Shown: in pieces, positions 36,539 to 64,000 of the stretch
Layout: every line of letters begins with the position of its first letter
Position numbering within the stretch: position 1 is the stretch's first letter
Assembly (NCBI GenBank): GCA_920105625.2
Contig: CAKKTE020000605.1
Coordinates: forward strand, 1,240,001-1,304,000
Origin: Clusia tigrina
Lineage: Eukaryota > Arthropoda > Insecta > Diptera > Clusiidae
Direction: 5' to 3'
Length of the DNA stretch: 64,000 bases
Program-made: the position numbers and the translations under genes
Notes under the pieces: model-generated
What the model was told of the DNA's origin: nothing
Databases searched by the model: none
Seen by the model: only the letters and a program-made list of their open reading frames with translations

Positions 36539-36589
<51 letters not shown>

Positions 36590-38297: not shown

Positions 38298-38392
38298 AAG
38301 ACTAACTAGAAGAAAATCGACCGAAAAATGACAAAGTTATAAGCAATTGAGTGAAGAAATCCAAATCCCAAATCGGTGAATCTACGTCTATT

Positions 38393-38936
38393 TTGTCGAG
38401 TCCATTGGCCCCAAATGATCCATATGTATGGTAAATAGTGGAGCGTCTCCTTTTTCAATAACTTTCAGATGACCCTCTTGTTTACCCAGCTTTTTATTAA
38501 ACAGTATACATTTTACGCAATTTTGAATTATCGTTTCCACTTTTTTTCGCAGGTGTGGTTTCAACGGTTACGTTATTATTGCGTAGTTTTCTACAAATTT
38601 ACGGAAGTATCCTGTGAGTCCGAGGAGTGATTGCAGTTTCTTAATGAATGCACCATGGCACACAAGCATTCTTTACAAGCCTTAAATCACACACTCAAAG
38701 ATCTTAAAGGAAATGACAGACTTTTTGGAGGCGCTTTGGTTTTGTTTTCAGGCGATTTCAGGCAAACTCTACCTGTTATTGCATGTTCAACATACCCTAA
38801 AGAAATTAATGCATGCTTGAAATCATCCTTTTTATGGCGTAGCGTGCCTAAATTGAATTTGACAACAAATATGAGAGTCCAAATATTAAACGATCCATCA
38901 GCAACCCTATTTTCTGCTCAATTATTGAAAATTGGA
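38393..38936. pseudogene. array unit C: gypsy fragment plus truncated Helitron
   Basis: 38393-38640 is the deleted gypsy fragment as in B. 38631-38936 is the first about 100 codons of the Helitron frame, carrying the same STYPKEI variant as B. The copy stops at KIG where a poly-T run (the poly-A of a minus-strand insertion) begins. Confidence 0.88.
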
Positions 38937-39844
38937 ATTTTTTTTTTTTTTTTTTAATATCCAAATATTTTATTGCAATCTGTTGCATTCAATCACATTC
39001 AGCAATATTTAATAACTTAAGACTAATTTTTGTATTTACTGTCTTTTATGGACTACACCCAGTGGTGCAGCCATTGATTATTAGCACAGGAGATCTGTTG
39101 TGGATTTTCTCTTCAGTCGGATGAAAGTGAAGGGGTTGGAAGTGAGTTCCGATGTCAGTGGATTTGGGTGGACTAGGAGTCTCAGATTGTGCGAAGTAGA
39201 GAGCTTTTTTATTTCTTGAGCGACTGTAGGAACTTTGAGGTCACGATGGATTTGGTTGTTTGTGACATAATAGGGCGCGTTTACAATCATTCTTAGGGTC
39301 TTTGATTGGAATCTTTGAAGTATTTCAACATTGGAAGTTGCCGCAGTGCCCCACAGCTAAATACCGTATGTCCAAACTGGTTTTAAAATTGCTGAGTACA
39401 AGAGCAATTTGCTATCGATTGAGACTTTGGAGTTTCGATTCAAGAGCCAGTGTAGATTTCTGAGCTTTATACCAAGTGATTTTCGTTTTGTAAATATATG
39501 TGTTTTCCAAGTTAATCTTCTGTCGAGGTGCATCCCCAGGTATCTAGCCTCATTACATTGGCGTATATTTATGCCGTTGAGTTTAACGGGTGGGCAGATG
39601 TTTCGTTTGAGAGTGAATGTAACCTGGACTGATTTTGTTTCGTTCAACTTGATTTTCCATTTTTTTAGCCAGTCAGTAATTTTGTTTAGCCCACTCTGGA
39701 TTTTAGAGGATGCTAAGTGTGGGAGAGTGTCAACAGCTAAGACAGCAGTGTCATCTGCAAAGGTACCTATGGTGACTCCTTCAGCTGATGGTAAGTCGTA
39801 CGTGTGAAGTAGATAAAGTATTGGGCCCATGACACTTCCTTGGG
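38937..39844 (-). mobile_element. 5'-truncated Jockey-type insertion with poly-A
   Basis: A T-run at 38937-38955 marks the poly-A of a minus-strand element. The coding part (39830-39357, then about 39290-39081) matches the plus-strand copy at 46754-47520 very closely: MGPILYLLHTYDLPSAEGV, FADDTAVLAVD, EARYLGMHLDRRLTWKTHIF and LKPVWTYGI. It is truncated at the GVPQGSVMGP region. The 5' junction shares CCCC between element and target (39841-39844), typical microhomology of truncated target-primed insertions. A stop follows WTYGI (39357). Left and right flanks come from different array positions. Confidence 0.88.
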
Positions 39845-40033
39845 GAGAAAACTCTCAAAATTGGCTGTTTCGTGAGTTTATTCTTAATCTCTTCAATCGC
39901 GTTTATTTCAGCTTGTGCTATTTCGAATTTTGAGTTTTTTCTGAGCAGGTCTGTCAACGGTTACGTTATTATTGCGTAGTTTTCTACAAATTTACGGAAG
40001 TATCCTGTGAGTCCGAGGAGTGATTGCAGTTTC
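39845..40033 (-). pseudogene. gypsy pol fragment, unit D
   Basis: Corresponds to about 31324-31516 of unit A without the 757-bp deletion seen in B and C. A few substitutions and a one-base insertion (CTATTTCGAAT instead of CTATTCGAAT) distinguish it. Unit D therefore does not derive directly from B or C. Confidence 0.85.
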
Positions 40034-41141
40034 TTAATGAATGCACCATGGCACACAAGCATTCTTTACAAGCCTTAAATCACACACTCAAAGATCTTAA
40101 AGGAAATGACAGACTTTTTGGAGGCGCTTTGGTTTTGTTTTCAGGCGATTTCAGGCAAACTCTACCTGTTATTGCATGTTCAACATACGCTAAAGAAATG
40201 AATGCATGCTTGAAATCATCCTTTTTATGGCGTAGCGTGCCTAAATTGAATTTGACAACAAATATGAGAGTCCAAATATTAAACGATCCATCAGCAACCC
40301 TATTTTCTGCTCAATTATTGAAAATTGGAAATGGAACTATGAATGTTAATCCATTAAGTCAAACACTCATATTACCAGAAGATTTCGGTAATCATATCAC
40401 ATCAAGAGACGATTTGATAGCCAAAGTTTTTCCAAATTTACACGACAATTACAACAATCATCATTGGTTAAGCGAAAGAGCAATATTGGCAGCCAAAAAA
40501 AGTAGATGTCGATGCAATCAATATCAAAATCCATGACATGCTTCCTATCGACTTGCTTTCTTTTAAATCCATTGATACAGTGGTCGACGAGAATGAAAGT
40601 GTCGATTATCCAACAGAGTTTTTAAATTCATTGGACTTACCAGGACTACCGCCACATATATTGAATTTAAAAATTGGTTCACCAATTATTCTATAAAGAA
40701 ACCGAAACGCACCTCGATTATGTAACGGTACCAGATTGGTAATAAAAAAAAAATTATGGGCAACGTCTTCGAGGCAACCATTATCACCGGAAAATTTAAA
40801 GGAGAACTCGTTCTACTCCCACGTATACCAATAATTCCAACAGATGCCCCATTCAATTCAAACGATTGCAATTCCCAATTCGCTTAGCATTCGCCATAAC
40901 GATCAACAATTCGCAAGGTCAAACGATGAGATTTTGCAGTTTAGATTTGGAAAATCCGTGTTTTTCACACGGCAATTGTATGTGGCCTCCTCAAGAGTTG
41001 GGAAGCAGCAAAATTTATTTATATATACACCAGCAAGGGAAACGAAAAACACTGTCAATACATTGGCATTTCAATGAACTATTTTTCTACAACAATTTTT
41101 TTGATTCAATTAAAATTATTAATTTCATTCAATTTTTTTGA
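40024..41141 (+). pseudogene. Helitron helicase fragment, unit D
   Basis: Same layout as unit A. Variants include Ala in STYAKEM and a one-base loss near 40848 (GATGCCCCATTC), which puts the following C-terminal block in two frames (40844-41077 and 40866-41141). Confidence 0.87.
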
Positions 41142-41429
41142 TACAATTAAAAATATTAATTTCACATTTTACTTTCTTCTTGTACATTAAAATAAGTTAA
41201 TGATTCTATTTTATAACATTTTAATTTTTATTTTAATAAAGTTCAATTAAAATATAACATAAGTTTATTTTTTATTTAGGACCATTTCTCTAAGTATTCT
41301 TAATATAGGATTAAACTTTATTTAAGACAATTTATTTAGGAATTCTTTATCATATTTACATAATGCCAAACCAAACAAAAACTAAAGGCAAAACCGCGTT
41401 TGCAGAGTTCAGTTAGTATAGTATACAAG

Positions 41430-41751
<322 letters not shown>

Positions 41752-41813
41752 AATTTTTTATTGTTTATTTGTGATTAAAATGAATTATTAAATAAAAAAA
41801 AATTAATTAATTT

Positions 41814-43323
41814 TTTATATGAATGTCGCTTGGTTGTATGGCTAAACAAATGAGGAAATTTTTATCGGGAAATGGGATTATCACTGAAAGACAATCTGGT
41901 TTTACACCAAGGCGGAGCTGCATAACGGCCCTAATTGATGTAGTAGAAGATATTCGGGTGACACTTGACTTGAGGAGTAATTCAAATACTTTAGACAAAT
42001 ATGGCAAAATAGCAATTGGCCAATAGTCATTGTCTGACTTTTGCTACCTTCCAACATGTTGGAAATATTGATGTCATTATCGCTGTATTAAAAATAGGGG
42101 TAATGACCGGAAGCAGCCCAGGAAGAAGTGCCTTAACAAAAACGGGATGAATCTCATCAGTACCACAAGCATTCGACTTTACACTAAAAAAACACTCCAA
42201 CCCATCCGACTCCTCTACACCACCAAAACCAAACATACACTCAGAAGACACAAGACTACAATAATCTAAATAACCATTCCCATGCACTGGTTCGATCGGG
42301 AGGTTAACAAACCTCTGATTCAGCTCGTTAAGATCAGAATCAATATTTGGAAGTGCACCGCTCTTCCCCAAGCTAATGCCCCGAATATGTCTCCACGTCT
42401 GATTGCTACTTACAGCATTAGAGAATTTACCCTCATAATATTTACATTTAGCAATCCTAACCTCCTTTATGACCTTCTTCTAAAGTTTCGCGAAAAATAG
42501 GTATCTTGTAACGTTTCCATCGTTTATATGCTGCGTCACGTAAGTCTATTAATGTCTTTATTTTATTGTTAAACCAAGGCCGTACTCCATGGCGTATAGA
42601 GAGCACTTTTTCCGGAACAAATTCATCGAAAACTTGCTTAATGTTAGAATGCAGGTACTCCACTTTGTCATTTATTGAGGTCAACTGGATTGAATCCCAA
42701 TCGATTATTTTAAGTTTAAAATCAATTGTCAGAAAAATTAAGTCATGTTTAGAGAAACAAGTGGCTGAGAGCTGTTTATACAGTCTAACCTTCCCTCTAT
42801 CGTCAACAAAATATAAATCCAACAGTGAACTGTTACTTTTTGTAAAATGAGTCGGTGACAATAAATTTTCCGAAACCAGACCCAATGCAGACATTTCAGA
42901 TATCAATCCATTCTCAATCAAGACATTGCTGTTGTAGTCCCCTGCCACCACAATACTTTGAAAATGGTCTAGAAACAATTGCATATCAATTCTACGATTC
43001 GGTCTATAAACACAACCAACAAGTAGACACTCAACACCATTGCAAACACTTAAGAATACATATTCAATTTCACTATCAATACCCGATTTACTGTGGATAT
43101 GGCAAGCAATGTCATCCCGTACAAAAATAGCTACCCCCCATTCATCAATTTTGTTAACCAAGCTCTGTGCATTAATATGAAATATCTTTGTTCCCATTTG
43201 AATTCTGCTAAGAATACGAATCCTATCAAAGTTAGTTTCATTGGAATTCACTGAAGACTTAATTAAAGCATTCATATTTGCAGCAAGCAAGTAAAGGCAT
43301 GGCAATACCGTAACGTAAGAATT
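41814..43323 (-). pseudogene. CR1-like fragment with inversion, unit D
   Basis: As in units A and B, but lacking the 7-nt CTATATG stretch of AAAGTTTCTATATGTTTCGCG (here AAAGTTTCGCG, near 42485). This changes the end of the open frame. Other changes include ITPIFNTAIMTSIF in the linker frame. Confidence 0.85.
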
Positions 43324-43509
43324 AAGACCAACTAGAAGAAAATCGACCGAAAAATAACAAAGTTATAAGCAATTGAGTGAATAAATCCAAATCCCAAATC
43401 GGTGAATCTACGTCTATTTTGTTGGAGGACAAAATTGCCACACACGTAACAGAAATTATTTGGATTGTTTACGCACTTAAATTCTTTTTTTCTTTTAGGC
43501 ATTTTGGAA

Positions 43510-45602: not shown

Positions 45603-47645
45603 AACTAAAGGGCTAAAGAAGACATCATTGCGGCTGTTGAACACTTCAACAACTGCCTGCAACAAGCTGCGTGGGACTCCACCCCCCCCCACTGAATGAA
45701 CGAAAATTAACGAACATCTCCAAACCTATAAAAGAAAAACTGAGAGAAAAGCGATATGCAAGAAAAAAGTGGCAACAAACTAGACATCCTGAGGACAAGA
45801 AAAAATTAACTGCGCTTACAAAAGAACTTAAAGAGATCCTTAATAACGAACGAAACACCCAACTCCATCATTACCTCAGTAATCTCGATGCAACAGCTGC
45901 TACAGAATACTCTCTCTGGAAAGCAACTAGGAATCTAAAGAGACCCACAATCTTCCAATCCGCTTTACGAATGGGCTAAAAGTGACCTTGAAAGAGCAGC
46001 CACAATTGCCCGACACTTAAAAAAAGTATTTACCCCACATGAAATCGAACCCCCAGCATGTGTAACAGAAGAAGTGAAAAGTGTTCTGAGTAATACCCAT
46101 CAGATGGACCTACCCATACGTAAATTTTCCAAATCTGAAGTGAAAGCAGCTATTGATAAGCTAAATATTAAAAAAGCCCGTGGGTACGACCTTATCACTG
46201 GAATAATAGTAAAACAACTTCCAGAAGAAGGAGTGACATATCTTACCTACTTATTTAACGCGGTACTAACATCTGGCTTTATAACTCCCCAATGGAAAGT
46301 GTCACAATTAAAATTGATTCTCAAACCCGAAAAAAGCGCTGATAATGTTGAATCGTATCGCCCAATTAGCTTGTTACCGATTGCGTCTAAACTCATGGAA
46401 ACCCTTTTCCTGAAAAGACTACTCCCAATTATAGAAGAGCGAAAGCTAATTCCAAATCATCAATTTGGATTCAGGAAAAAACACACCACAATCGAACAGG
46501 TTCATAGGATTGTTGAGTATATACACACTGCATTCGAACATAAAAAATATTGTACAGCAGCGTTTCTTGATATCTGGCAAGCATTTGATCGCGTTTGGCA
46601 CGATGGTTTGCTTTACAAAATAAAAACTACACTCCCCTTTAACTACTATGTGTTAATCAAGTCCTATCTTACAAATAGATATTTTTTCGTAAAGCAAGGT
46701 GAGGAACAATCTGAGCTCCATGAAAGCTCAGCAGGCGTACCCCAAGGAAGTGTCATGGGCCCAATACTTTATCTACTTCACACGTACGACTTACCATCAG
46801 CTGAAGGAGTCAACATAGGTACCTTTGCAGATGACACTGCTGTCTTAGCTGTTGACACTCTCCCACACTTAGCTTCCTCTAAAATCCAGAGTGGGCTAAA
46901 CAAAATTACTGACTGGCTAAAAAAATGGAAAATCAAGTTGAACGACACAAAATCAGTCCAGGTTACATTCACTCTCAAACGAAACACCTGCCCACCCGTT
47001 AAACTCAACAGCATAAATATACCCCAAAGTAATGAGGCTAGATACCTTGGGATGCACCTCGACAGAAGATTAACTTGGAAAACACATATATTTACAAAAC
47101 GACAATCACTAGGTATAAAGCTCAGAAATCTCTTGAATCGAAACTCCAAAGTATCAATCGATAGCAAATTGCTCTTGTACCCAGCAATTTTAAAACCAGT
47201 TTGGACATACGGTATTCAGCTGTGGGGCACTGCGGCAACTTCCAATGTTGAAATACTTCAAAGATTCCAATCAAAGACCCTAAGAATGATTGTAAACGCG
47301 CCCTATTATGTCACAAACAACCAAATCCATCGCGACCTCAAAGTTCCTACAGTCCTCAAGAAATAAAAAAGCTCTCTACTTCGCACAATCTGAGACTCCT
47401 AGTCCACCCAAATCCACTGACATCGGAACTCACTTCCAACCCCTTCACTTTCATCCGACTGAAGAGAAAATCCACAACAGATCTCCTGTGCTAATAATCA
47501 ATGGCTGCACCACTGGGTGTAGTCCATAAAAGACAGTAAATACAAAAATTAGTCTTAAGTTATTAAATATTTCTGAATGTGATTGAATGTAACAGATTGC
47601 AATAAAATATTTGGATATAAAAAAAAATAAAAAAAACTAAAGGGC
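45603..47645 (+). mobile_element. Jockey-type retrotransposon, 5'-truncated, with 11-bp TSD
   Basis: Element 45614-47634, flanked by AACTAAAGGGC at 45603-45613 and 47635-47645. It starts within ORF2 after the endonuclease (DIIAAVEHFNNCLQQAAWD, about 45624). It ends with AATAAA at about 47602 and an A-rich tail. A frameshift near 45960 separates the linker from the RT frame. The insertion point lies at the left end of a MITE. The minus-strand copy at 38937-39844 belongs to the same family. Confidence 0.92.
46074..47366 (+). CDS. Jockey-type reverse transcriptase, 430-codon open frame
   Basis: The longest intact RT frame in the window. Motifs in order: KKARGYDLITGIIVKQL, SYRPISLLPIASKLMETLFL, HQFGFRKKHTTIEQVHRI, motif A AAFLDIWQAFDRVWHDGLLY, GVPQGSVMGPILY, catalytic FADDTAVLAVD, ARYLGMHLDRRLTWKTHIF, and thumb AILKPVWTYGIQLWG. 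The frame extends upstream of the first codon listed (WAKSDLERAATIARHLKK from about 45970), so the nominal start is not biological. No RNase H follows. The endonuclease and ORF1 are missing, so it is not autonomous, but the RT itself appears undamaged. Confidence 0.88.
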   Translation: MKSVLSNTHQMDLPIRKFSKSEVKAAIDKLNIKKARGYDLITGIIVKQLPEEGVTYLTYLFNAVLTSGFITPQWKVSQLKLILKPEKSADNVESYRPISLLPIASKLMETLFLKRLLPIIEERKLIPNHQFGFRKKHTTIEQVHRIVEYIHTAFEHKKYCTAAFLDIWQAFDRVWHDGLLYKIKTTLPFNYYVLIKSYLTNRYFFVKQGEEQSELHESSAGVPQGSVMGPILYLLHTYDLPSAEGVNIGTFADDTAVLAVDTLPHLASSKIQSGLNKITDWLKKWKIKLNDTKSVQVTFTLKRNTCPPVKLNSINIPQSNEARYLGMHLDRRLTWKTHIFTKRQSLGIKLRNLLNRNSKVSIDSKLLLYPAILKPVWTYGIQLWGTAATSNVEILQRFQSKTLRMIVNAPYYVTNNQIHRDLKVPTVLKK

Positions 47646-50285: not shown

Positions 50286-50681
50286 GGGTGGGACAACACT
50301 ACAAAAAAAAAACTTCAACTCACCATTTTTCCTAGCATCCTCCTCTACGACGACAAGCGAGCCCGCCCCATATTGTCCGCCTTAGCCTAACATTTTTAAC
50401 ATAAAATTAAACATACTAAACATTCTACTTGCTATTAAATAAATAACATACATTGTAACGACTCTTTTTTATAGCTGGGGTAAAACTCAGCGGCTCCAGG
50501 GGTCGTGTACAGAAAAATATCAAAAGTCCTGCGAGTTATATTAACAATAGCGTATTTATTTAATATAATGATGGGGAGCTCTTGCTCGAAACAATTCTAT
50601 TTTCTTAATTCTATATATATAAACTTGCTTAGTGTATACTTGTTTGCCTGTCTCTACGTCCCGGTAAGTATGTGTCTCTGT

Positions 50682-50930
50682 GACTCAGTGGGAGAACGAT
50701 TAAAAACCAGAGGCTCTCACTGAGTCCCTATGGTCTCGGTATGACTTAGTGGGAAAACGATTAAAGAACCAGAGGTTCCCTCTAAGTCCCTAAGTCTCGG
50801 TTGCGTATGTGTCTCAGTGATTCAGTGGGAGAACGATTAAAAACCAGAGGCTCTCACTGAATCCCTGTAGTCTCTGTCTGTGTATGGCTTAGCGAGAAAA
50901 CGATTAAAAACCAGAGGTTCTCGCTAAGCT
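50682..50930. repeat. array of four hairpins with covarying stems and a conserved loop
   Basis: Hairpins at 50682-50726, 50743-50788, 50819-50863 and 50886-50930. Each has two 12-13-nt arms around the nearly constant loop AACGATTAAAAACCAGAGG (one extra G in copy 2). The arms are GACTCAGTGGGAG, GACTTAGTGGGAA, GATTCAGTGGGAG and GGCTTAGCGAGAA. The partners change correspondingly (CTCTCACTGAGTC, TTCCCTCTAAGTC, CTCTCACTGAATC, TTCTCGCTAAGCT). Spacers begin TCCCTA/TCCCTG in the first three. See findings. Confidence 0.9.
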
Positions 50931-51802
50931 TTCTGTGTTCGTATTGTACTTTGTAGAGCTGTTGCTAGTCAGGATGCTGGTGATTGACGAAGAGCCCTGC
51001 TGCCTGGGCTACGTGGTTTATATAGTCCCAGGTCGCAGCGGCTGACACATGTTGTTATTGGCAGGCCACCGTTGTGTGACTTTACTTCCGTTGTGGCAGG
51101 CTTGTTGTTGTTGCAGTCAGGCTTGTTGGTGTTGTAGTCTTTTGCCCTTGGGCCACCTTCAACTTCTGGCGGTCAGCCACCTCACTCCAACGGTCCCTGG
51201 TTCGCCTGCAGTATTGTTGCCTGCCAGCAGCGCTGTCCGGAATCCTGTAGTGGTGTTGTTGTTAAATATTTAATTTAACTGACAACCAGCATTTCATTTG
51301 TATTCCTCCTTCTGCTTTGTACGTGCTGGTCGTTTGGCGTGGTGGTTGCTCTGTCGTTGTCCCTCTTGTGCTTCGCTCTCGTTTCTTCGTGTTGTTAGTG
51401 TAAAATTTCCAAGCGAGCGCACTCGGCAAATTCCACCGCTGAGTTCGTGCACTCACCTTCTCTTGTCCTGCATGTATTTGTTGTATTCCTCGTCGCTGTG
51501 TTTTGCCTCGCTCTTCGCAAGCATAGCGCTGATTGGCAAGATCGTTGGCTGTGGTGGTCGGGTTTTTTGTTGTAATTGCTATTATTCCAACTGGTCTAAT
51601 ATGCTGCTGCTGATCTGCGCTCCTACCACGGCCGCGCTAATTGGTTACAATGCTTGTAGTTCTTTTCGTTAGGTTCTCACTACAGTTGTTTCGGGTCGGG
51701 TATTTTATAGTGATGTGTGTGTGTATATAGTTTCGTAGCGCCTCTGTCATTTGTAGTGTGGGCCAAAATTTCCCACAGAAGATTTTACTCCTCACAACAT
51801 AT

Positions 51803-52849: not shown

Positions 52850-52983
52850 ACCCGCGTACTGGCGGACCAGCGTTAAATCCCTGATCTTGTTGATTTCGCT
52901 CTGATCAAAAACATAAACAGGGCACTATTTTCCTCTGAAGCAATTTTCGACTTGTTCTCCGATCATTCACTTGTCTTCATATA

Positions 52984-53891
52984 CGAGGTGTGATAAAAAA
53001 ATAACCGTTATTTTCGTGAGTTACGTATGTTCGATGTTCGCATTTTTATGTTGGCAATACCAACAATTTTGGATTGTCAGTTTGTTTTTGACAGATAAAA
53101 AGGTTAGTCGTGTTTTGGTGTGCTCTTCGATTTTGTACTATTCAAAAAAATGGATCAAAGAAACTGTATTCAGTTTTGTGTAAAAAATGAAATTAAATGC
53201 GCAAGGACATTTGAAATGTTGACTGTGGCCTTTGGCGAGTCTACTATGAGCAGAACACAAGTTCAATTGTGGTATAACCGGTTTAAGGAAGGCCGAGAAG
53301 ATGTCAATGACGATGCTCGTCCTGGTCGCCCGAGCACGTCAACAACCGATGAAAACTTTGACGCAGTGAAGAAAATGATTTGGATAATCGTCGAATCACT
53401 ATCAGAGAGGTTGCTGATGATGTTGGCATATCGTTCGGCTCATGCCAAGCAATTTTTACGGATGTTTTAGGCATGAAACGTGCGGCAGCGAAGATGTTCC
53501 AAAATTGCTAAATTTTGAGCAAAAACAACGTCGCATGGACATCGCTCAGGAGCTGTTTTTGGCCAAAAACAAAACCGTTATCATGCCTCAACCACCGTAT
53601 TCACCCGACTTGGCCCCCGCTGACTTTTTCCTCTGTCCAAAACTGAAGACACCGATGAAAGGAAAGCGTTTTGCTACGATTGAGGAGATAAAAGAAAAAT
53701 CGAAACAGGAGCTGTTGGCGATACCAAAAAAAGCGTTTCAGAAGTGTTTCGAGGATTGGAAAAAACGCTGGCATAAGTGTATTATATCTGAGGGGAATTA
53801 CTTTGAAGGGGACAAGATAGTTTGTGATGAATAATCAAATACTTTATTTTTTGATCACACAATAACGGTTATTTTTTTTTATCAAACCTCG
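52984..53891 (+). mobile_element. mariner copy 2, internally deleted, with TA target duplication
   Basis: 908 bp between TA dinucleotides (52982-52983, 53892-53893). Ends CGAGGTGTGATAAAAAAATA and, inverted, CGAGGTTTGATAAAAAAAAT. The N-terminal transposase (about 53150-53470) has MDQRNCIQFCVKNEIKCART and the helix-turn-helix block SRTQVQLWYNRFKEGRED, then DDARPGRPSTSTTDEN. The C-terminal third follows (53442-53834). The join IAQEL/FLAKNKTV is the same as in copy 1, and the catalytic middle is missing. A one-base loss near 53494 shifts the frame. Non-autonomous. Confidence 0.92.
53442..53834 (+). pseudogene. mariner transposase, C-terminal part of copy 2
   Basis: KLLNFEQKQRRMDIAQEL is joined directly to FLAKNKTVIMPQPPYSPDLA. 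The frame ends CIISEGNYFEGDKIVCDE at TAA 53832. It retains only the third catalytic Asp (SPD). It is nearly identical to copy 1 over the shared stretch. Confidence 0.88.
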
Positions 53892-54520
53892 TACTTCAAC
53901 AAAACTCCTGAACTTGTACATAAATCGCCCAAATTGACCACCAACAAAACGAACTGGCTCAAGTATAAGAAATACGTGAGTACACGTATTTGCCTGGAAT
54001 ATCCCCCTAAAAACAAGGATGACTTAGAGAGAGCGCTCCACGAATTTAATTCCCTGTTAGCATCAGCGACTGCGTGCGCAACACCAGCAGAAAAAATGAT
54101 GCAGTTTGCTACCCGTTATATAATTTCGACCCATGTGCAGTGCCTCGTTAAGGAGAGAAGTCGCCTAAGACGAGAATGGCAGAAATATAGGTCACTTGCC
54201 CGAAAGAGGAAATTAAAATTGTCACAAAATCACCTTAGAGATGTACTTCAAAAGGAAGCTGAAAGCAAGTATTGAAATGGAAGTTGGGCCAAAAGCGATA
54301 AAAAAGGAGCAGCATTTGCACATCTACAAAACGTGTTTGCCTAATGCTCCGTGCAATAACTTCGAAGTCGCTACTTTCCCTAGTACCAAAGTGACTCAGC
54401 CGCTTCAACTAAAAATGAAAAACTTAGAGTGTGTCAATAAAACAGGTCTTAATGCAAAAAAATACAGTGGATATGACCTAATCACAAATAAACAATAGAG
54501 CAGGTGCACCGTATAACAAG

Positions 54521-55027
54521 TGTTGTGAGTTAGGACCATACTACCTACGTGTAGTTTACTCACAGCACCGACTCCTAATAGATGCCACACTATGTTGAAT
54601 TAGCATGTGCTAAAACGGTGTTATAATAAGGCATACTTCTAGGGTTTAAGTATTTCAGGTTAATGTGATCTGTGCAACGTTATTATGTAAGCTTTTAGGG
54701 TGTTACAGTTCCGCAGTCTAGTCGACGAGGGCAGCGTAATGCACCGTCGCCACTTTTGAAGTGGGTCAGTTGGATTGACCAACTGACACCAATTAGCAGG
54801 TGCAGAACTGGAACACCAGAAAGGTCAGTTCACAGACTGAGATAAATGTTTATTGGTAAATAGTATATAAGAACTAGTATTTTTAAGAATAAAGCTCTCT
54901 TGTGTTTTGAAACCGAAAAGTGGCAGTGTTTAAATTCTACGTTAGGGCTCTTGATTTTTCAGCCACTCGCCTGAAAACGGCGACAGGACGTCTCTCTCGC
55001 CGACAAGCAGACACGAGGACCCCAACA
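54521..55027 (+). repeat. 5' LTR (507 bp)
   Basis: Starts TGTTG and ends CAACA, a 5-bp terminal inversion. It contains TATATAA at 54864-54870 and the polyadenylation signal AATAAA at 54888-54893, in U3-R order. It is followed after 3 nt by the primer-binding site. The start also coincides with the abrupt end of the Jockey host sequence. Confidence 0.8.
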
Positions 55028-55030
55028 TTT

Positions 55031-55050
55031 TGGCGCAGCCGGTAGGATCC
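55031..55050 (+). promoter_or_regulatory. primer-binding site
   Basis: TGGCGCAGCCGGTAGGATCC begins 3 nt after the LTR. It closely resembles the tRNA-Ser-type site (TGGCGCAGTCGGTAGG) used by 17.6/297-like elements. Confidence 0.75.
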
Positions 55051-55134
55051 AACGTCGAGTGCCAGGAAAAGAGCACTCCTACGCGGGAATCCACCAATAG
55101 GAAACCACCAGGATAACCATTCCAAAGGAGGGCA

Positions 55135-56006
55135 ATGGAGGGAACGAACATGGTGAGTATGTCTATAGTAGGACATCTTAGTATTTAAGAAAACTTTGCC
55201 GACGATTCTTCGGTGACCGTGTGGGCGCTTTTGCGCCGGTCATGCAGAAGAAGCAGCATTGGGGCTGATTAGCCGCTGCGGTTAGGTAACAATAGGTCGA
55301 TTTAAAAGAAAACTTTCTACTTACGGTCAGGTTGCATAGGGTTGTTTCACTGAAATCAGGTTCATTCTTTTTACAATAACCACTTATTTCAGCATTCTCG
55401 GGGGGCGTGAAACATATGAAGTTTTGTCTAAAGGAAACAAAGTTCCTCTCTAATCCCTGTTGTGTTGCGCACTCGTGCATACCGGCTGGTTTGGTTCAGG
55501 CAGAACGTGCCACGGTATAGATCTTACGCATTCAAAATAGTGGTTGGGGCTTCATATGTTCATTCGTGGGATTAACGTTTGATTTTTCTGTCCGTGTCAA
55601 GTACCGGAATGAAGTTAAGGTTTACTTTTTGGGGCATCGCGTGTATTTTGTTTGGCAGCGTGTTTCGTGGCTGCGGTTAGGGTAATTCTAATCTCAAGTC
55701 ATTTAGTAAAACTGGCTATTTATTTTCTTTGAATATCAGGAAATAAATGACCAGGGTACCAAAGACGTAACGGGTGCGGAAGGTCGGAGGATTGAGCTAA
55801 GGCCAATTGCAGAAGTGCCGCGCACGCATCCCTATTGGCATAGACGTGGTGGAAAAGCAGCACGGGAGAGAAAGCGGCTGGCTTTTCTAAGGAAGTTTCT
55901 GGCAGAACAGGCAAACCTGGAAGTGCCTCTGCCTTGGAGCGAAGCTAACAGATTATGGCAGGAAAGATTCAGACTGGAAGAGGCGAACACTGGATTTTAT
56001 AATTAG
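55135..56006 (+). CDS. predicted spliced small basic ORF upstream of gag (94 aa)
   Basis: Predicted join of 55135-55152 and 55740-56006. The first exon is ATG plus five codons (MEGTNM), followed by a perfect GTGAGTATG donor. The acceptor is a T-rich tract ending TTTGAATATCAG at 55739. The second exon stays in phase to TAG 56004-56006. The product has a basic centre (HPYWHRRGGKAARERKRLAF) and a Trp-containing end (LPWSEANRLWQERFRLEEAN). The second exon alone has no ATG at its start, which supports splicing. No known family is recognised; an RNA-binding or accessory role would be a guess. The intron would be 587 bp. Confidence 0.55.
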
Positions 56007-56529
56007 CTGTAAGAATTTTCGTAAATTAAACCGAAGTGTTATTTATATTTTTGTTAGCGAGAACTTGCAAATTTAAGTTAAGTCAATAAATAAATTGTGG
56101 AACAATTCAAATGGTTGCTTTAGATTGTTGACATTTGGAGTAGGATAAGTAAGAATATTTGGAGAAGTGCCATCTACATATGTTGTCACATCATAGCTTG
56201 TGTAGTCTCGAAACTACAATTTGCGCAGCGAAAATGCACCAATGCTACGCACGGAAAAGCGAAACAGCTTAACCGAGCGATGTTCAGAAATAGATATGAG
56301 TAAAGTTCCGCGGTAAAATGCTTCTTGAATACGAAGATTTTCTGGTAGTACTTTTGTGAAATAAAGTAAATGCGATTGCGAATAAATTAAAATTGGGTAT
56401 ACTAATATGCTTATATTTGGGGTAGTCATGTTGGATTTTCTAATGGAATTTTCAAGTGAGGTTTAAAAATTAGGTACGGTAAAACTTGGTTTTTGGAGTT
56501 TGGGTTAAAAGTAGAGATTATTTCGGTCT
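56007..56529 (+). other. gag leader, no gene recognised
   Basis: AT-rich sequence between the small ORF and the gag ATG. No protein domain is seen. Confidence 0.5.
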
Positions 56530-58791
56530 ATGGAAACGCCAAGGGAAGCGATAAAATTGCTGAAAGCTCAAAAGCTACAGAGCGAGGCAATTCAGAAGAG
56601 GATCAGAAATTGTAGGAAGGATAGCAAAGCAAGGAAAAACAGCGCGTACTACCGCAAACGCATAACGGAGTTAGAAGCTTTGTTGACTGTGTTTAATAGC
56701 AGCAACGAGGAGTTACTAAAATTTAAGGACTGTTGTGGTGAAAAGGATTACTTCACCAAGGATTACGCGTTACACGTCAACGGTTTGACACGAGACTGGT
56801 TGACTAAATTCAAGTTGGATTTAGAAGAGCTGGAAGCACAGGAGGATAGTCCTAGTTCGCAGGAGGACAGGGCTCGAGACAAGCTTAGGTCTCTGCAAAC
56901 TGAGGTGAAATTGTTAGCAGAAAAATTGTTTGAACAATTGGAAGCGGCAACCAGCAAGAGTGAAGCCCAGGTACTCTGGAGATTAGCGAGAGACGGTGGA
57001 AACCTGTCAACTCTGGAAGCAGCAGACCAAGCGTTAGCTACTATTCAGAGTCGGACGGAAGAAAAGTTATTCCAAGTCTTCAAAGATACTGAGGAATTGA
57101 AGATAAATACGGAGTTCCTTGAAAATAAAACTAGAGTACTTTCTAGGCAACTCCGGGAAACTGAGGAAGCCGCATCGCACCTGGAGAAGGAAAACTTGGA
57201 GCTCAAAAGAATCGGGGCAACCACTAAGCCCGCAAGAGTGAGATCGGCTTCAACTTCTCAAATTCAAACGCAGACAGTATTAGCTCTGCCACCAGAAGTT
57301 CGCTGGCCGGAGTATTTAACTCCGGAAGGGATAGGTCGTGTGGTAAAGCCTAGATTAAACTTGACTGGAGAGAGTGAAGCGGAGTTTTTATTTGACGCGT
57401 CGGAAATCGGTGTCGAGCCATTTACTCCAGGAAGTCCGATTAATAATAGAAATCGGGGTTATCCGCCAAAGGAGCCAGAAGTGGACAGTATTTCGCCGAT
57501 AGGAACAAACGGTCGAAGGCTAATAAGTTTGAGTCCGTCACTGGTTAAGTACCTCTCAGATTCGGGAGAAGAAAATCTGGAAACCCCCACAGAGGTTAAC
57601 GCTAATTTATCACCAAAACTTAAGCAAGCAAATAGAAGTAAAATGGGCATTCTGGAAGTAGCTCATGCAGTGGAGAAGCTGGTGCCCATGTTCTCAGGGG
57701 TCGAGTTGTATGATCTGAGAACTGAGATACGGCGCTTCAAAGAAGGTTGTGAGTTGGCGCAACAGAGTCTTCCGGAAGCAGAAGGGGAACACTTGATAAG
57801 ATGTATAAGACAAAGGACCACAGGTGATGCGTTTGATTTACTAGCGCATAGCTCAGTAAGCACCCTGCCGGAGTTATACGCACTTTTAGATCGAACATAT
57901 TTGAAACAAAAGTCGTACGACTGTCTTGTACGGGAAATACAGGAATCAACTCAGAAACCAGGGGAGGAATTGAGAGCCTGGGGACGAAGGATCCAGTCTC
58001 TGGGGAACGCTGCTGAGACAGAAGCTAACAGGCAGTTTCCAGGAAATGTCGCAGCATACAAGGCTCAAGTAGAACGAGCCATGATTTCTGTGTTTAAGGC
58101 AGGTCTGATAAATAGGGACTTGGCGAATTATACTCTTAATCTCACGCAGAGGAGTATGGCAGAATTAGTCGAAGCGGTTTCTTCCGCCGAAGAAGCAATC
58201 CAACAGCGAGCGACAACAGGTGGAATCTGTTGGAATAATGCTCCTGCAGAGGTAGGACCGGTACAGCAGCGGAACCCAAGGGGAATCGGCAGATTTTCCC
58301 TCCCGCAACAAAGAGAACAAGGTTGCCTAGTCGAGAGTTTCCAGCCGAGCAAACCCATTTGTTCATTTTGCCATAAGTCGGGACATACAAGGGATGAATG
58401 CATTACACGCAAGAATACGCCCTATTGTATGGAGTGCCAAACATATGGTCATGAGGCAAGTAGACAGTGTCAATTAGACAATAAATGGGATCAAAGTAGA
58501 AGGCAGCCAGCTACGAGGCGCCCAGATCCAACCTTAAGGGACAGCAGGGGTAATGGTCCTCGAGTCAACTCAACGGAAGGGATTAACCAAGGAAGAAATC
58601 CTTTCAGCACTGGGAATGGTCAACAGCGGCCAAACTGGGATACTAGAGGAGGACAAAGGTTAGGCAACACCCAACAGGGGTTGAAATGTTTTTCATGTGG
58701 TCGGATGGGACATCGAGCTGCGGAGTGCAGGGATAGGCAGTTCCAACAGAAGAACCAGGGAAACTTCCAGCGGCCCAGTCGAGGCCAGTAG
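56530..58791 (+). CDS. gag polyprotein, 753 aa, three zinc knuckles
   Basis: An intact frame from ATG 56530 to TAG. Residues 1 to about 240 are highly charged and predicted to be long coiled coil (for example TEELKINTEFLENKTRVLSR). A low-complexity Pro/Ser region follows (about 270-370). The capsid region (about 378-560) has LVPMFSGVELYDLRTEIRRF and ELRAWGRRIQSLGNAAE, typical of retroelement capsid C-terminal parts. The nucleocapsid has three CCHC knuckles: CSFCHKSGHTRDEC (about residue 616), CMECQTYGHEASRQC (H-x5-C spacing) and CFSCGRMGHRAAEC (about 718). It packages element RNA. It is longer than most fly gypsy gags because of the coiled-coil extension. The stop precedes a separate pol frame. 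Confidence 0.85.
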   Translation: METPREAIKLLKAQKLQSEAIQKRIRNCRKDSKARKNSAYYRKRITELEALLTVFNSSNEELLKFKDCCGEKDYFTKDYALHVNGLTRDWLTKFKLDLEELEAQEDSPSSQEDRARDKLRSLQTEVKLLAEKLFEQLEAATSKSEAQVLWRLARDGGNLSTLEAADQALATIQSRTEEKLFQVFKDTEELKINTEFLENKTRVLSRQLRETEEAASHLEKENLELKRIGATTKPARVRSASTSQIQTQTVLALPPEVRWPEYLTPEGIGRVVKPRLNLTGESEAEFLFDASEIGVEPFTPGSPINNRNRGYPPKEPEVDSISPIGTNGRRLISLSPSLVKYLSDSGEENLETPTEVNANLSPKLKQANRSKMGILEVAHAVEKLVPMFSGVELYDLRTEIRRFKEGCELAQQSLPEAEGEHLIRCIRQRTTGDAFDLLAHSSVSTLPELYALLDRTYLKQKSYDCLVREIQESTQKPGEELRAWGRRIQSLGNAAETEANRQFPGNVAAYKAQVERAMISVFKAGLINRDLANYTLNLTQRSMAELVEAVSSAEEAIQQRATTGGICWNNAPAEVGPVQQRNPRGIGRFSLPQQREQGCLVESFQPSKPICSFCHKSGHTRDECITRKNTPYCMECQTYGHEASRQCQLDNKWDQSRRQPATRRPDPTLRDSRGNGPRVNSTEGINQGRNPFSTGNGQQRPNWDTRGGQRLGNTQQGLKCFSCGRMGHRAAECRDRQFQQKNQGNFQRPSRGQ

Positions 58792-58838
58792 ACTGGAAAG
58801 CCAAAAGAAAGGAAGCAACAGTTAGGCCGAAGGTACGT

Positions 58839-59879
58839 GTGACTGGTAATGTAGGAAGTACAGTCCAGGAAAAGGAGGAGCAAGAGGCTCTCCAATACCA
58901 CGTACCAAGTAACGTAAGCACAATGGTTCAAATTACGGAGGAGCAAGAGTCTCTCCGGGGGAAAATTTTTGATTGCGTATTGATTTGGGTAACTGTGATG
59001 ATTCTAGCACTTAGATTAAGTTTTAATAAGATTAGAGAGTATAGGCCAATCGCCGCGTACGTGGTACGAGGATGTATAGTTAAGGTATTAGCGGTAATTT
59101 TGAGGGAGTATAGGGTTGTAAGGCATAACTGTGGTGCATGGAGGAGAAAATTGGAAGAGCTAGGAAGTAGATACGCGTCCATTTTGGAGTCAAAAGGGCG
59201 TTGTTTCGTTGTGAGCAGGGTAGGAGATGCTTTCATCGAGATACCCTGCAAGGAGGCAGCTAGTGGAAAGCTAGTGCTTTTGGTAGATTCAGGGGCGGAT
59301 ACTAGCCTCGTAAAATGTAGTGTTTTACGGAAAGGACTAGTTATTAACCCAAAAGATGTAAGAACGCTTAATGGAGCGTTCGGAGGTTGCATCAGAACAC
59401 TGGGGTCACTTAAAATAGGGCACAGTAAAGTTAAGGAAATGAGTTTTAGAGTGCACGCAGTTGAATTGGATAGGAAAGGTATCCCGGCCGATGGGATAGT
59501 TGGCCGCGATAATCTCTGGGGCCGCACCATACTTGATGCGCTAGAGAAACAGTTATCATTTTATGATGATAATAAGAATAGAATCCTTACTCTCCCATTA
59601 AAGTCATGGCAGGAAGGAACCGTGAATAGGGTTAAGAATTGTATAGAGGTAGTGAACGCAAGGTCAACCAGAGTAGTTTCTATTCGTGTAAACACGAAAC
59701 TTAGGACTGTTGTTTTGCACAAGCAGCAGCTAGCGGATGGCGTAAGGATACGCAACACCAAACAGGGGTTAAGATGCTTCTCATGTGGACAGATTGGACA
59801 TCGGGCAGCGGAATGCAGAGATAGACAATCCCAACAAAGAAACCAGGGAAACTTCCAGCGGCCCAGTCGAGGCCAATAG
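58839..59879 (+). CDS. pol N-terminal part: protease copy 1, fused to a second zinc knuckle
   Basis: A 346-codon frame. One hydrophobic stretch (IFDCVLIWVTVMILALRLSF, about residues 43-62) could be membrane-active. The aspartic protease follows, with active site LLVDSGADTSLVK and flap/C-terminal RDNLWGRTILDAL. After VVLHKQQLADGV the expected pol continuation is missing. Instead the frame re-enters gag-end sequence: RNTKQGLRCFSCGQIGHRAA and a copy of the final gag residues QRPSRGQ plus stop. It is therefore the product of an internal duplication. The nominal start is uncertain. Confidence 0.75.
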   Translation: MTGNVGSTVQEKEEQEALQYHVPSNVSTMVQITEEQESLRGKIFDCVLIWVTVMILALRLSFNKIREYRPIAAYVVRGCIVKVLAVILREYRVVRHNCGAWRRKLEELGSRYASILESKGRCFVVSRVGDAFIEIPCKEAASGKLVLLVDSGADTSLVKCSVLRKGLVINPKDVRTLNGAFGGCIRTLGSLKIGHSKVKEMSFRVHAVELDRKGIPADGIVGRDNLWGRTILDALEKQLSFYDDNKNRILTLPLKSWQEGTVNRVKNCIEVVNARSTRVVSIRVNTKLRTVVLHKQQLADGVRIRNTKQGLRCFSCGQIGHRAAECRDRQSQQRNQGNFQRPSRGQ

Positions 59880-60019
59880 ACTGGAAAGCCAAAAGAAAGG
59901 AAGTAATAATAAGGCCGGAAGTACGTGGGACTAGTAATGTAGGAACTACAGTCCAGGAGAAGGAGGAGCAGGAGGCTCTCCAGTATCACGAAGAGTTAGG
60001 GAATAGATACACGTCCATA

Positions 60020-61303
60020 TTGGGAACAAAAGGAGGTTGCTTCGCTATGAGTAGGATAGGTGATGCCTTCATCGAGATGCCCTGCGAGGAGGCGGTGAGT
60101 GGAAAGCTAGTGCTATTAGTAGATTCAGGGGCGTACACTAGCCTCGTAAAATCTAGTGTTTTACGGAAGGGGCTAGACATTAATCAAATGGACTTAAGAA
60201 CGCTTAACGGAGCGTTTGGAGGGTGCATTAGGGCATTGGGGTCGCTCAGAATAGGGCATAGTGGAGTTAAGGGTATGAGTTTTAGAGTGCACGCAGTGGA
60301 AGTGGATAGGAAAGGTATCTCGGCTGATGGGATAATTGGCCGCGATAATCTTTGGGGACGCACCAGACTGGATGCGCTTGACAAGCAGTCATCATTCTAT
60401 GATAACAATAAGCATAGAATCCTTACTTTTCCATTAAAGTCATGGCAGGAAGGAACCGTGAATAGGGTTAAGAATTGTATAGAGGTAGTGAACGCAAGGT
60501 CAACCAGAGTAGTTTCTATTCGTGTAAACACGAAACTTAGGACTGTTGTTTTGCACAAGCAGCAGCTAGCGGATGGCGTATATATGGGAGAGACCATAAC
60601 GCACGTTAATAAGGGTAAAGTGTACGCTTGTGTACTAAATGCGTCAGGAGAGGACTACTATATGGATAAGGATTTTAGGCCTAAGTTCACTAGTTATGAT
60701 AGTTTTAAGGAACCGAATTATGGAACGGTTAATCAGATTAAGCAGGTAGATATAAGGAAAAGAATGGAGAGAGTGCTAGAATCAATGAGGTTGGACCCAA
60801 GCGTAAATTTAGAAGAAAAGGCATCAATAGAGGCCATTTGTATGTCATTCCATGACATATTTTTGCTGGAAGGAGACCAGTTAACGTATACACCAGAGGT
60901 AGAGCATGAAATACCTACTAGGGTGGATCAAGCACCAATTAACCAGAAGCAATACAGGTTGCCACAGGCTCACAAAGATGAGGTTAATAGGCAAGTGGAA
61001 GGAATGTTAAAGGATAACATTATTTCGCCGAGTATCTCGCCTTGGAATTCACCAATAATTTTGGTGCCAAAGAAGGGAGGTGCTCACGGTCAGAAGAAGT
61101 GGAGAATGGTCGTTGATTTTAGGAAATTGAACGACGCCACTATCAAGCAGGTGTTCCCAATACCAAGGATAGAAGAGATACTGGATCAATTGGGAAGATA
61201 TAAGGAAAAGAATGGAGAGAGTGCTAGAATCACTGAGGTTGGACCCAAGCGTAAATTTAGAAGAAAAGGAATCAATAGAGGCCATTTGTATGTCATTCCA
61301 TGA
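60020..61303 (+). pseudogene. pol: protease copy 2 and start of RT, ended by a 448-bp duplication
   Basis: Protease copy 2 has LLVDSGAYTSLVK, with Tyr replacing Asp in DSGAD. RDNLWGRTRLDAL follows, then VVLHKQQLADGVYMGETITH, a pol linker and the RT start (INQKQYRLPQAHKDEVNRQV, SPWNSPIILVPKKGG, WRMVVDFRKLNDATIKQVFP). At 61196 the sequence jumps back to repeat 60748 onward. The 448-bp shift is not a multiple of three, so the frame is lost and ends at 61303. The active-site Asp-Ser-Gly is retained. Confidence 0.8.
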
Positions 61304-61370
61304 CATATTTTTGCTGGAAGGAGACCAGTTAACGTAGACACCAGAGGTAGAGCATGAAATACCTACTAGG

Positions 61371-62015
61371 GTGGATCAAGCACCGATTAACCAGAAGCAA
61401 TACAGGTTGCCACAGGCTCACAAAGATGAGGTTAATAGGCAAGTGGAAGGAATGTTAAAGGATAACATTATTTCGCCGAGTATCTCGCCTTGGAATTCAC
61501 CAATAATTTTGGTGCCAAAGAAGGGAGGTGCTCACGGTCAGAAGAAGTGGAGAATGGTCGTTGATTTTAGGAAATTGAACGACGCCACTATCAAGCAGGT
61601 GTTCCCAATACCAAGGATAGAAGAGATACTGGATCAATTGGGATACAGTAGATATTTTTCTACACTTGATTTAGCGAGTGGCTACCACCAGGTTCTGGTG
61701 GATACCCAAGATAAGCAGAAAACCGCGTTCAGCACCGGCTTAGGCCATTATGAGTTCAATAGAATGCCGTTTGGATTAACAGGAGCACCGGCTACCTTCC
61801 AACGGCTAATGAACCATGTGCTAACAGGCTTACAAGGGTTAGATTGTTTTGTGTATCTCGATGATATTGTAATTTATGGGAAGAACTTGCAGAACTCGCC
61901 ACCAATTTTGGCATACCCCGACTTTGAACAAACTTTTTTGTTGACCACTGATGCTAGCAATGAAGCGTTAGGGGCAGTATTGTCACAAGGGAAGTCGGTA
62001 ATGACCGATCAATAG
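61371..62015 (+). pseudogene. pol: RT core, joined to RNase H by a deletion
   Basis: The second copy of the RT start continues correctly: YFSTLDLASGYHQVLV (motif A), RMPFGLTGAPATFQRLMNHV and the catalytic CFVYLDDIVIYGKN. It then joins directly to RNase H sequence (PPILAYPDFEQTFLLTTDAS, NEALGAVLSQG), so the RT thumb and connection are deleted near 61892. A frameshift near 61995 ends this frame. An in-frame TAG near 61336 separates it from upstream pol. Confidence 0.82.
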
Positions 62016-62530
62016 CATTCGCAAGCAGAGCGCTTAGCGACACGGAGAAGAGATACTCCACAATAGAAAAGGAATTTCTAGCCATAGTATGGGCTACCAA
62101 GAATTTTAGGGCATATCTGCTAGGACGCCCATTCAAGATATACACTGATCACCAGCCGTTGAGAGGCATAGCCAATTTGAAAGACCAAACGTCTAGGCTA
62201 GCCAGGTTCAGACATAAATTGTCTGAGTATTATTTTGAAATCATTTACAAACCTGGGAAAAAGAATCTGAATGCGGATGCACTCAGCAGAGTACCGCAGG
62301 CACAGAAGGTATCAGTAGTGCAAACGAGGGCCAAAGCACGGTCAGATAAGGAGAAGACCGAGAGAATTCAAGGGGATAAAATTGATGCAACAGGAAATGT
62401 TAGCAATGCGGGTGACGTTGCTAATGAACAAAGAGCCAGTAGTGTGGAATGGCTGAAGGATATAAAGGATATCCAGGCTGTGTTAAAGGGTTTCCATAGG
62501 TGGACACCAGGGATTCTGGAAAACCCATGA
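62016..62530 (+). pseudogene. pol: RNase H end and linker
   Basis: After the frameshift: SIAFASRALSDTEKRYSTIE, KEFLAIVWATKNFRAYLLGR, IYTDHQPLRG, and YKPGKKNLNADALSRVPQ. This is the gypsy RNase H end followed by a Lys/Glu-rich linker (RAKARSDKEKTERIQG). The frame ends at TGA 62528 because of an indel near 62500. Confidence 0.82.
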
Positions 62531-63493
62531 CAGAATTAGGCGAGTATACGGATGGAAAGGTATGCTCAAGGACATAAAAAAATATGTAAGAAGTTGCCCA
62601 AAGTGCCAGGCCAACAAAAGTTCAAGGCTGACAAAGATGCCCATGGTGTTAACGGACACACCAAAGCAACCATTTGATAAGGTTCATATGGATATTGTAG
62701 GTATTTTACCTGAGACTGTTTCGGGCAATAAATACATCTTGACGTTCCAAGACGATTTCTCAAAGTATATGGCGTGCGTGGCTATACCCGATGCTGAAGC
62801 AAGTACGGTGGCCAAAGCATTCTTTGATAAAATTATAGCAAGATACAACATACCTAAGGTTTTGATAACCGACAATGGTTCAAATTTCGTATCAAAAAAA
62901 TAAAATGTAAAATGCTGGGAATCAAGAAGTTGCACATAACACCATATCATCCACAGGCGAATGGCTCATTGGAACGTAGTCATCGACCTCTGGCCGAGTA
63001 CTTGCGCAGTTTTGCCAAAGAAGACGGCTCGAATTGGGATCAATGGTTAACCACTGCAATGCATGTACACAACAATACTGTGCATGTATCAACGAAGCAA
63101 ACTCCGTTTAGAACACTCTACGGGTTTGATTTCAACATGCCAGCGAATTTGAAGTGCAAATGTGCGCCTGTATACAATGCTGATGATCCCAATAAAGTAC
63201 AAAAATATCAGTTGCAGCGAGCGCACGAGTTGGTTAGAGAAAACCAGGAATGTGCAAAACGAGTGGCCAGGGAAGCCTATAACAAGGTACTAAACCCAGT
63301 AGTTTTTCATGTGGGTGATCAAGTACTAATGAAGAATCAGGCTAGGAGAAACAAATTCTCACCTGTGTGGATAGGTCCGTATGTAGTAGCAGAGATCCGA
63401 AGCCCAGTTACAACAGTCGTAACGATTAAGGGAAAAAATAAAAAGCTACATAATAATTTATTGAAATTATTCCACATTAGACCACACAAATAA
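62500..63493 (+). pseudogene. pol: integrase
   Basis: The zinc finger in the alternate frame has GGHQGFWKTHDRIRR, then CPKC (62590-62610). The catalytic core has HMDIVG (first Asp, about 62686), TDNGSNF (second Asp, about 62870) and NGSLERSHRPLAEYLRSF (Glu, about 62965). The C-terminal GPY/F-type block is KFSPVWIGPYVVAEI (about 63356), and the ORF ends FHIRPHK at 63493. A frameshift or small deletion at 62890-62915 splits the core. All catalytic residues are present but not in one frame. Confidence 0.83.
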
Positions 63494-64000
63494 AGACATG
63501 TGTTAGCAGTGTCTTAGAAGTGTAAACACAAAAATAACAACGTAAACAAGTACGTGTGTGTATCAAATAACACACACAGCTCCGATTTTCAAAGTCAAGA
63601 CCAGCAGAAGTGTGCAAATTAAACTCGAGCAAGTAAAGTTGACGTAATAAAAATGTGCTTATTATGCACTGTGGTCGAACGAAGCACAGTAGGGAAAAAT
63701 ATATTTTTTTAAAATATTCAATGATAAATATTGCACGTAATTTAAAAAATAAAATAAAATAATAAGACAGTCGTGGGTAAGTAATATAAAACTTAACTTC
63801 AAATATGTACATACATACATACGGCAGTGTATGCACTGAAATTCGATGCATGAGCGTTAACGCCAGGCAACGGAACTGCTGGTGAAGTAAGTATATATAC
63901 GAGTATGTATATATGTGTATAAGATAAAGAATGAATGTACGAATGTATATTTAAAGAAGTAATTATTCTAATTAGGAGGAATGGGTATGTGCGTATGTAT
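63494..64000 (+). other. LTR element 3' untranslated sequence, no gene
   Basis: No env and no sequence matching the 5' LTR. It contains ACATACATACATAC and TATATGTGTAT microsatellite-like patches (about 63810, 63895-63925). The 3' LTR may lie beyond the edge. Confidence 0.5.

Follow-up and report, generated by a model that had tools for sequence, protein, structure and literature searches.

A tandem array of hairpins with covarying stems and a near-constant loop in the LTR of a Ty3/gypsy element of Clusia tigrina

The LTR and its landmarks

The window is the whole stretch of DNA that was analysed: 64,000 nucleotides of Clusia tigrina (Diptera, Clusiidae), positions 1,240,001 to 1,304,000 of contig CAKKTE020000605.1 (assembly GCA_920105625.2). 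Positions are those of the window unless a locus is named; loci fetched from the genome are given L numbers. The window carries a solo LTR of Ty3/gypsy type that contains four tandem hairpins. Plus: window strand. Minus: sense strand of the element.

50450..50453, no strand: target-site duplication ACAT, one side
50454..51796, minus strand (sense position 1 is 51796): solo LTR, Ty3/gypsy, 1343 nt, delimited by alignment of copies and by the LTR ends with their flanks
50555..50560, minus strand: AATAAA, probable poly(A) signal, recurrent in other LTRs
50682..50726, minus strand: hairpin 1 (window order); stem of 13 bp with one plus-strand G-T; loop 50695-50713
50743..50788, minus strand: hairpin 2; stem with a T-T mismatch; loop 50756-50775, 20 nt, one G being extra
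50819..50863, minus strand: hairpin 3; stem of 13 bp with one plus-strand G-T; loop 50832-50850
50886..50930, minus strand: hairpin 4; stem of 12 bp plus an outermost plus-strand G-T; loop 50899-50917
51715..51729, minus strand: TATATACACACACAC, TATA-like, putative promoter element; TATACACACACAC is found likewise in a B-type LTR (see below)
51797..51800, no strand: target-site duplication ACAT, other side

An LTR had been among the candidate locations of the array in an earlier reading made from the sequence alone (the sequence-only reading), and copies fetched from the genome, which align to window 50454-51796, support it. The second LTR that this reading had proposed to look for is lacking here because the window copy is a solo LTR. 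A right end near 51649, drawn from an inverted repeat, was corrected to 51796 by the copies and their flanks. The LTR ends read TGTAAC..CACA on the window strand (TG..CA type). Duplications of 4 bp are found at 13 of the 14 loci between L009 and L028 for which both outer flanks are readable; L026 is the exception.

The orientation is given by the complete copies. On the minus strand, the LTR end GTTACA is followed by GTGGCGCCCGAGCAGGGACT, the primer-binding site, and AAGTGGGGAGGGCG, the polypurine tract, precedes the other LTR end; the ORFs encoding gag, protease, RT, RNaseH and the integrase zinc-binding domain run in the same direction. The strand on which the hairpins had originally been described is therefore antisense to the element, and a promoter/splice-donor reading of that strand was dropped once the coding strand was established.

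Counted on the sense strand, the array spans positions 867-1115 of 1343 and sits 229 nt from the LTR end; AATAAA follows it after about 120 nt. Of 41 LTRs, 32 have this motif in their last 320 nt, mostly 105-109 nt from the LTR end, and both it and TATACACACACAC are carried on the sense strand by LTRs of types A and B. Judged by these landmarks, TATA-like sequence on one side and AATAAA on the other, the array should lie in the transcribed R region.

Other elements in the window

A different gypsy-type element (zinc-finger gag, protease, RT) occupies 54498-64000 on the plus strand, its left border being set by eye. It contains internal tandem duplications: 59154-59744/59990-60580 (88%), 60745-61195/61193-61643 (99%) and 58656-58902/59744-59990 (86%). 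Tandem units of about 3.56 kb, 97-99.5% alike, fill 31324-43422, and inverted copies of a part of them lie near 46740-47636. An insertion with near-terminal inverted repeats, presumably mariner-like, is found at about 52979-53890; L028 carries a 91% copy. The ORF at 16374-16901 (minus strand) matches the envelope-type family Baculo_F (PF12259, E 1.6e-10) and probably comes from an endogenous insect element. Those at 20248-21066 and 21936-22877 (plus strand), with DUF4780 (E 2.7e-20) and an endonuclease-reverse transcriptase domain (E 4.7e-15), are probably parts of one LINE.

Element family and coding content

The exact loop, AACGATTAAAAACCAGAGG, occurs at 2141 places in the genome to which the window belongs (1.214 Gb, 666 contigs); the reversed control occurs at none. 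Divergence between paired LTRs is 0.36% in L009, 0 in L010, 0.14-0.62% in L011 and 0.57% in L014, so the family moved recently.

In L013, a copy with RT that carries the array, a domain scan placed protease and RT at 2946-4196 and RNaseH and the integrase zinc-binding domain at 4370-5335. This is the order of Ty3/gypsy elements, the integrase being seen as its zinc-binding domain; the LTRs, primer-binding site, polypurine tract and target-site duplications are likewise those of a Ty3/gypsy LTR retrotransposon. Among the 120 matches listed for the protease-RT ORF, the best named relatives are from Drosophila, Eurosta, Rhagoletis and Glossina. The interior of L009 has a single long ORF, gag-protease only, and this element also carries the array. 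A zinc-knuckle match was obtained in gag-protease ORFs; it is weak, below the Pfam cut-off in two of the three long ORFs scanned.

At 10 genome places, CTTTTAATC precedes an exact complement of the primer-binding site, an arrangement expected of a tRNA-Lys(UUU) gene; the primer site is thus complementary to tRNA-Lys. The LTR measures 1343 nt here and 1318-1616 nt at other loci (from a search for ends, which were partly checked). Osvaldo-lineage LTRs measure 997-2055 bp, and a tRNA-Lys primer, a long LTR and a 4-bp duplication are given for the lineage in the available text of PMC3286476; that of PMC3630058 also gives the duplication. The element thus appears to carry the marks of the Osvaldo lineage (primer, LTR length, duplication), the placement being made by these marks.

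An ORF encoding a Ulp1-type C48 peptidase (E 2.8e-26) lies directly before the 3' LTR of a complete copy (L013:6180-7367, plus strand). The available part of PMC2836005 attributes Ulp1 domains to Ginger1 and Mutator transposons; a narrow literature search listed no gypsy element with a Ulp1-type peptidase. L014 has a 175-aa ORF in a comparable position (6303-6827), which matches no Pfam family at E 0.01.

Structure of the hairpins

The four hairpins at 50682-50930, 45-46 nt each, were confirmed from the sequence and by a script re-check. Most of what had been said of them holds. The loop is AACGATTAAAAACCAGAGG in copies 1, 3 and 4 and the same with one more G (20 nt) in copy 2; both arms change together at stem positions 2, 3, 5, 8 and 13; the imperfections are the T-T mismatch of copy 2 and a few G-T pairs (one each in copies 1 and 3, the outermost pair in copy 4). 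The start spacings of 61 and 76 nt stand, and the third becomes 67 nt instead of 68; with a 12-bp stem, hairpin 4 starts at 50887. The loop, proposed to be the recognised part, is indeed the most conserved part of the hairpin.

The LTR contains four inverted repeats in which 11 or more of 12 positions are complementary and the gap is 18-21 nt, against a mean of 0.01 and a maximum of 1 in 300 dinucleotide shuffles of the LTR; the same criterion gives 28 matches across the whole window. The stem is predicted on both strands. The 321 nt around the array fold better than their shuffles, with a z of -2.68 for the plus strand (equalled by 1 shuffle in 100) and of -3.29 for the minus strand (equalled by none in 100).

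In sense orientation, the loop is C(C/A)UCUGGUUUU(U/C)AAUCGUU, which contains UCUG. A 5-bp inner helix of this loop was considered and rejected: it is predicted in 7 of 8 hairpins, yet it also arises in 153 (A) and 380 (B) of 2000 shuffled loops. The idea that the loop pairs with the interior of the element was also discarded, as the five interiors tried have no shared partner.

Covariation of the stems

The covariation seen among the four hairpins of the window is found again, at the level of lineages, in other copies in the genome. Across 23 distinct hairpins, hand-picked for variety from this genome, 95.3% of stem cells pair, against a mean of 87.0 in shuffles that leave relatedness in place. 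Two-sided changes affect 7 of the 12 pairs, a number reached by 14 of 500 shuffles; neither the 36 two-sided cells nor the covariation score of 0.389 is reached by any of the 500, and the score is at most 0.101 when the register is slid. Further pair types, 13 in number, are not in excess, 472 of 500 shuffles reaching as many.

Larger sets give the same picture for single pairs. In 246 hairpins from 79 loci, a non-random sample, mostly the first listed on contig C1 and picked through exact loop matches, pair 9 is T-A in 120, C-G in 117, C-A in 7 and T-G in 2; pair 6 of the same set, within one core context, is T-A in 69, C-G in 35 and C-A in 4. Counts over the whole genome, in one fixed context, give 368 T-A, 12 T-G and 342 C-G for pair 6; among 100 matches listed for C-G, 41 sit in one tandem array.

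The changes can be followed on an LTR tree built with the array removed. The last hairpin has the arms GTGAGAA/TTCTCAC in the old copies L031 and L035, GCGAGAA/TTCTCGC in many copies and GCAAGAA/TTCTTGC in one group; one-sided states are found in L020 and L043. At pair 11 the one-sided state is found in L014, L032, L036 and L044 and the two-sided one in L039. The arms GCAAGAA/TTCTTGC are also found outside the main tree group, in L027 and L046, so recombination or repetition occurs.

Rarer copies behave differently from the lineages. There are 14 arm pairs shared by at least three loci; of 74 copies with other arms, 72 show no two-sided change, and the other two, L031 and L035, are of one old type. 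Hairpins pairing at under 7 of the 12 positions were set aside before this count, so that it omits strongly decayed copies and raises the paired share. Among 44 single departures, 37 leave Watson-Crick pairing (15 to a mismatch, 13 to A-C, 9 to G-T) and 2 restore it, one of them being that of L039. At the level of lineages, then, stem changes are compensated, and in rare copies they mostly are not, as expected of selection on active elements.

The sequence-only reading had named two outcomes that would speak against selection on folding: stems diverged without covariation in other copies, and one palindromic duplication followed by conversion. Both were examined: covarying stems are kept at the lineage level, and the one-sided intermediates speak against the second. 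Because changes are compensated at the lineage level and 72 of the 74 rare copies lack a two-sided change, the comparison of copies favours selection for pairing over an artefact of palindromic duplication. Wobble pairs do not single out a strand: four common arm pairs have them only on the plus strand and three only on the sense strand, which is about even. In hairpins 1 and 3, pair 4 is a fixed G-T on the plus strand; read in sense orientation it becomes A-C, a point against the explanation preferred below.

Two LTR subfamilies and the number of units

The LTR of the window is of type A. Type B has the loop AACGATTGAAAACCAGATG, found exactly at 680 genome places; one to four hairpins were detected per fetched stretch, the commonest spacing being 67 nt. 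By blastn, the B LTR L089 and the window LTR align only at LTR 1-63 and 212-475, the latter being the array; a more permissive search with another B copy gave weak matches elsewhere in A-type LTRs too. Five A LTRs, two of which belong to a single element, were aligned pairwise with L089 and L090, B LTRs that come from one place; L089 is the cleaner, the start of L090 being set about 90 nt too far out. Identity is 0.66-0.92 in the array, where the repeated units allow a choice of register that can raise it, and 0.44-0.51 outside. The array exceeds the best outside window of equal length in 10 of 10 comparisons, with a margin of just 0.02 in two. On these alignments, the array is kept in two diverged subfamilies whose LTRs have otherwise diverged more.

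The number of units varies. A covariance model (R2) gave 441 matches at E 0.1 or lower in 80 loci, with at least six in one LTR of L010; unit counts made beside the LTR tree are underestimates, since the loop pattern used caught three of the four units of the window. At B-type loci, some hairpins mix arms of different units, by deletion between identical loops.

Some copies are rearranged. A hairpin of L035 (about 1779-1823, plus strand) has lost about 10 nt of its loop, the stem being still paired. L022:893-2448 is an LTR copy in two oppositely oriented parts, split inside the array. L108 (G000:C1:137384094-137506479) is a tandem array of about 122 kb made of this LTR and about 1.2 kb of interior; 41 hairpins are listed in it, mostly about 2.7 kb apart, and two adjacent units are 99.9% identical over 887 nt.

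Interpretation of the array

As pairing is kept and the loop is nearly fixed, the loop is likely the recognised part and the stem its holder. The explanation preferred here, tentatively and at somewhat less than an even chance, is that the genomic RNA of an Osvaldo-type Ty3/gypsy element carries the array in its R region as multivalent stem-loops, read at the loop, most likely by Gag. The array would act as RNA of the sense strand and would be present at both ends of the genomic RNA, as R is. Each stem would hold up an almost invariant loop for a protein to recognise, and several hairpin copies would give avidity. The likeliest reader would be the Gag of the element itself, choosing its RNA for packaging through the UCUG of the loop; a host export protein or another RNA-binding protein would be the next candidate. 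Recognition by Gag is favoured by the UCUG in the loop, by the weak zinc-knuckle match in Gag and by the array of L009, since a gag-protease-only element that keeps the array is what a cis signal used in trans would require. According to the available text of PMC7599994, MoMuLV NC uses its single zinc knuckle to bind UCUG. The weight of this motif is lessened by its being a common 4-mer, present elsewhere in the LTR and in about 6% of random 19-mers. A more specific form of the preferred explanation, considered unlikely, is a coat-protein operator array: from one to at least six interchangeable handles in R, in complete and gag-only copies alike, whose number and loop type would decide packaging and keep A and B apart.

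The same sequence and folding evidence would suit an RNA element read by a host factor, comparable to a CTE, which would recruit an export receptor or another RNA-binding protein for export, stability or translation of unspliced RNA. This is possible, if on the unlikely side: in the available text of PMC7551171, the structured RNA of simple retroviruses binds NXF1 through repeated recognition loops, but the CTE is there one long stem with two internal loops, whereas the array consists of separate hairpins of 45-46 nt with terminal loops. It is quite unlikely that the array acts as DNA, the loop being a double-stranded site for a host protein (an enhancer or insulator, as with Su(Hw) in gypsy) and the palindromes being incidental or extruded as cruciforms. 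A variable copy number, a conserved 19-nt core and a position in an LTR would fit an array of binding sites, but a double-stranded site gives no reason for two-sided stem changes that keep pairing. Still less probable is an absence of function, one arm being copied from the other at reverse transcription or replication and units multiplying by slippage. The varying unit number, the mixed arms of B-type hairpins and the GCAAGAA/TTCTTGC arms of L027 and L046 are what such events would leave. However, the one-sided intermediates (L020 and L043; L014, L032, L036 and L044) and the fixed mismatches (the T-T of hairpin 2, the T-C of one B-type hairpin) indicate that arm copying is not efficient, two-sided change is limited to 2 of 74 rare copies, and arm copying would not protect the loop, which is nearly fixed.

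Two further proposals are given very little credence. The HIV-1 tRNA-like element reportedly binds lysyl-tRNA synthetase, and the loop might similarly mimic the anticodon loop of tRNA-Lys, drawing the synthetase or the primer near the primer-binding site. The 10 genome places with CTTTTAATC before the primer-site complement agree with this, as does the A-type sense loop, which holds TTTTAATC and whose match to the tRNA piece is equalled by 40 of 5000 shuffled loops. The resemblance does not extend to both subfamilies: the B-type loop has TTTTCAATC, and its match, equalled by 907 of 5000 shuffled loops, is at chance level. In addition, the sense RNA would resemble the anticodon loop itself instead of pairing with it. 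The other proposal, already among the candidates of the sequence-only reading, is an antisense or hairpin RNA feeding small-RNA silencing. Stems form on both strands and TATATATATAAA lies beside the array on the plus strand, at window 50612; but this sequence is absent, as judged by eye, from 420 nt of one B-type copy (L089), silencing gives no reason for a conserved loop, and stems of 12-13 bp are short for Dicer.

Comparison with known systems

The array had been said to belong to no named family, and searches of Rfam and of published papers agree: Rfam 15 gives no match in the window at the gathering threshold, and the 19-nt loop string occurs in none of the papers searched. A narrow search of titles and starts of abstracts found no description of such a hairpin array. 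The loop occurs in none of the viral contigs searched, and a phage search gave none. Forms of the loop are found in 16 bacterial or archaeal stretches, with a single match in each; about 7-8 are expected by chance (257 Gb, even composition).

To our knowledge, little is known of how insect LTR retrotransposons mark their own RNA. The family offers a large set of readable copies, with stems compensated stepwise, a constant loop and a varied number of units, and a signal that is directly testable. The array could account for the spread of gag-only copies with the aid of complete ones, and for what keeps related subfamilies separate.

In operator hairpins of MS2-type phages, the coat protein reads the loop on a stem of fairly free sequence, and tandem copies give avidity in laboratory constructs; sequence and host are unrelated to those of the array, and the likeness is by analogy only. 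The Su(Hw) array of gypsy consists of several repeated sites in a non-coding part of a Ty3/gypsy element. Those sites act as double-stranded DNA, whereas the arms covary here.

With the Osvaldo lineage (Osvaldo, Isis-like and mosquito Osvaldo-like elements), the element shares a long LTR, a tRNA-Lys primer site and a 4-bp duplication; it differs by the C48-peptidase ORF before the 3' LTR of L013 and by the hairpin array, which is not mentioned for Osvaldo elements in the available text of PMC3286476 and PMC3630058. The packaging signal of MoMuLV, as described in the accessible part of PMC7599994, is made of stem-loops in the leader of genomic RNA and offers UCUG to a single zinc knuckle, as is proposed for the array. 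Unlike it, the array is made of tandem, near-identical hairpins inside the LTR; it is known here from sequence, and no homology is claimed. The CTE of MPMV, following the available text of PMC7551171, is one long stem-loop with two internal loops and thus differs from a row of separate hairpins; what the two have in common is the presentation of repeated conserved loops on a structured RNA.
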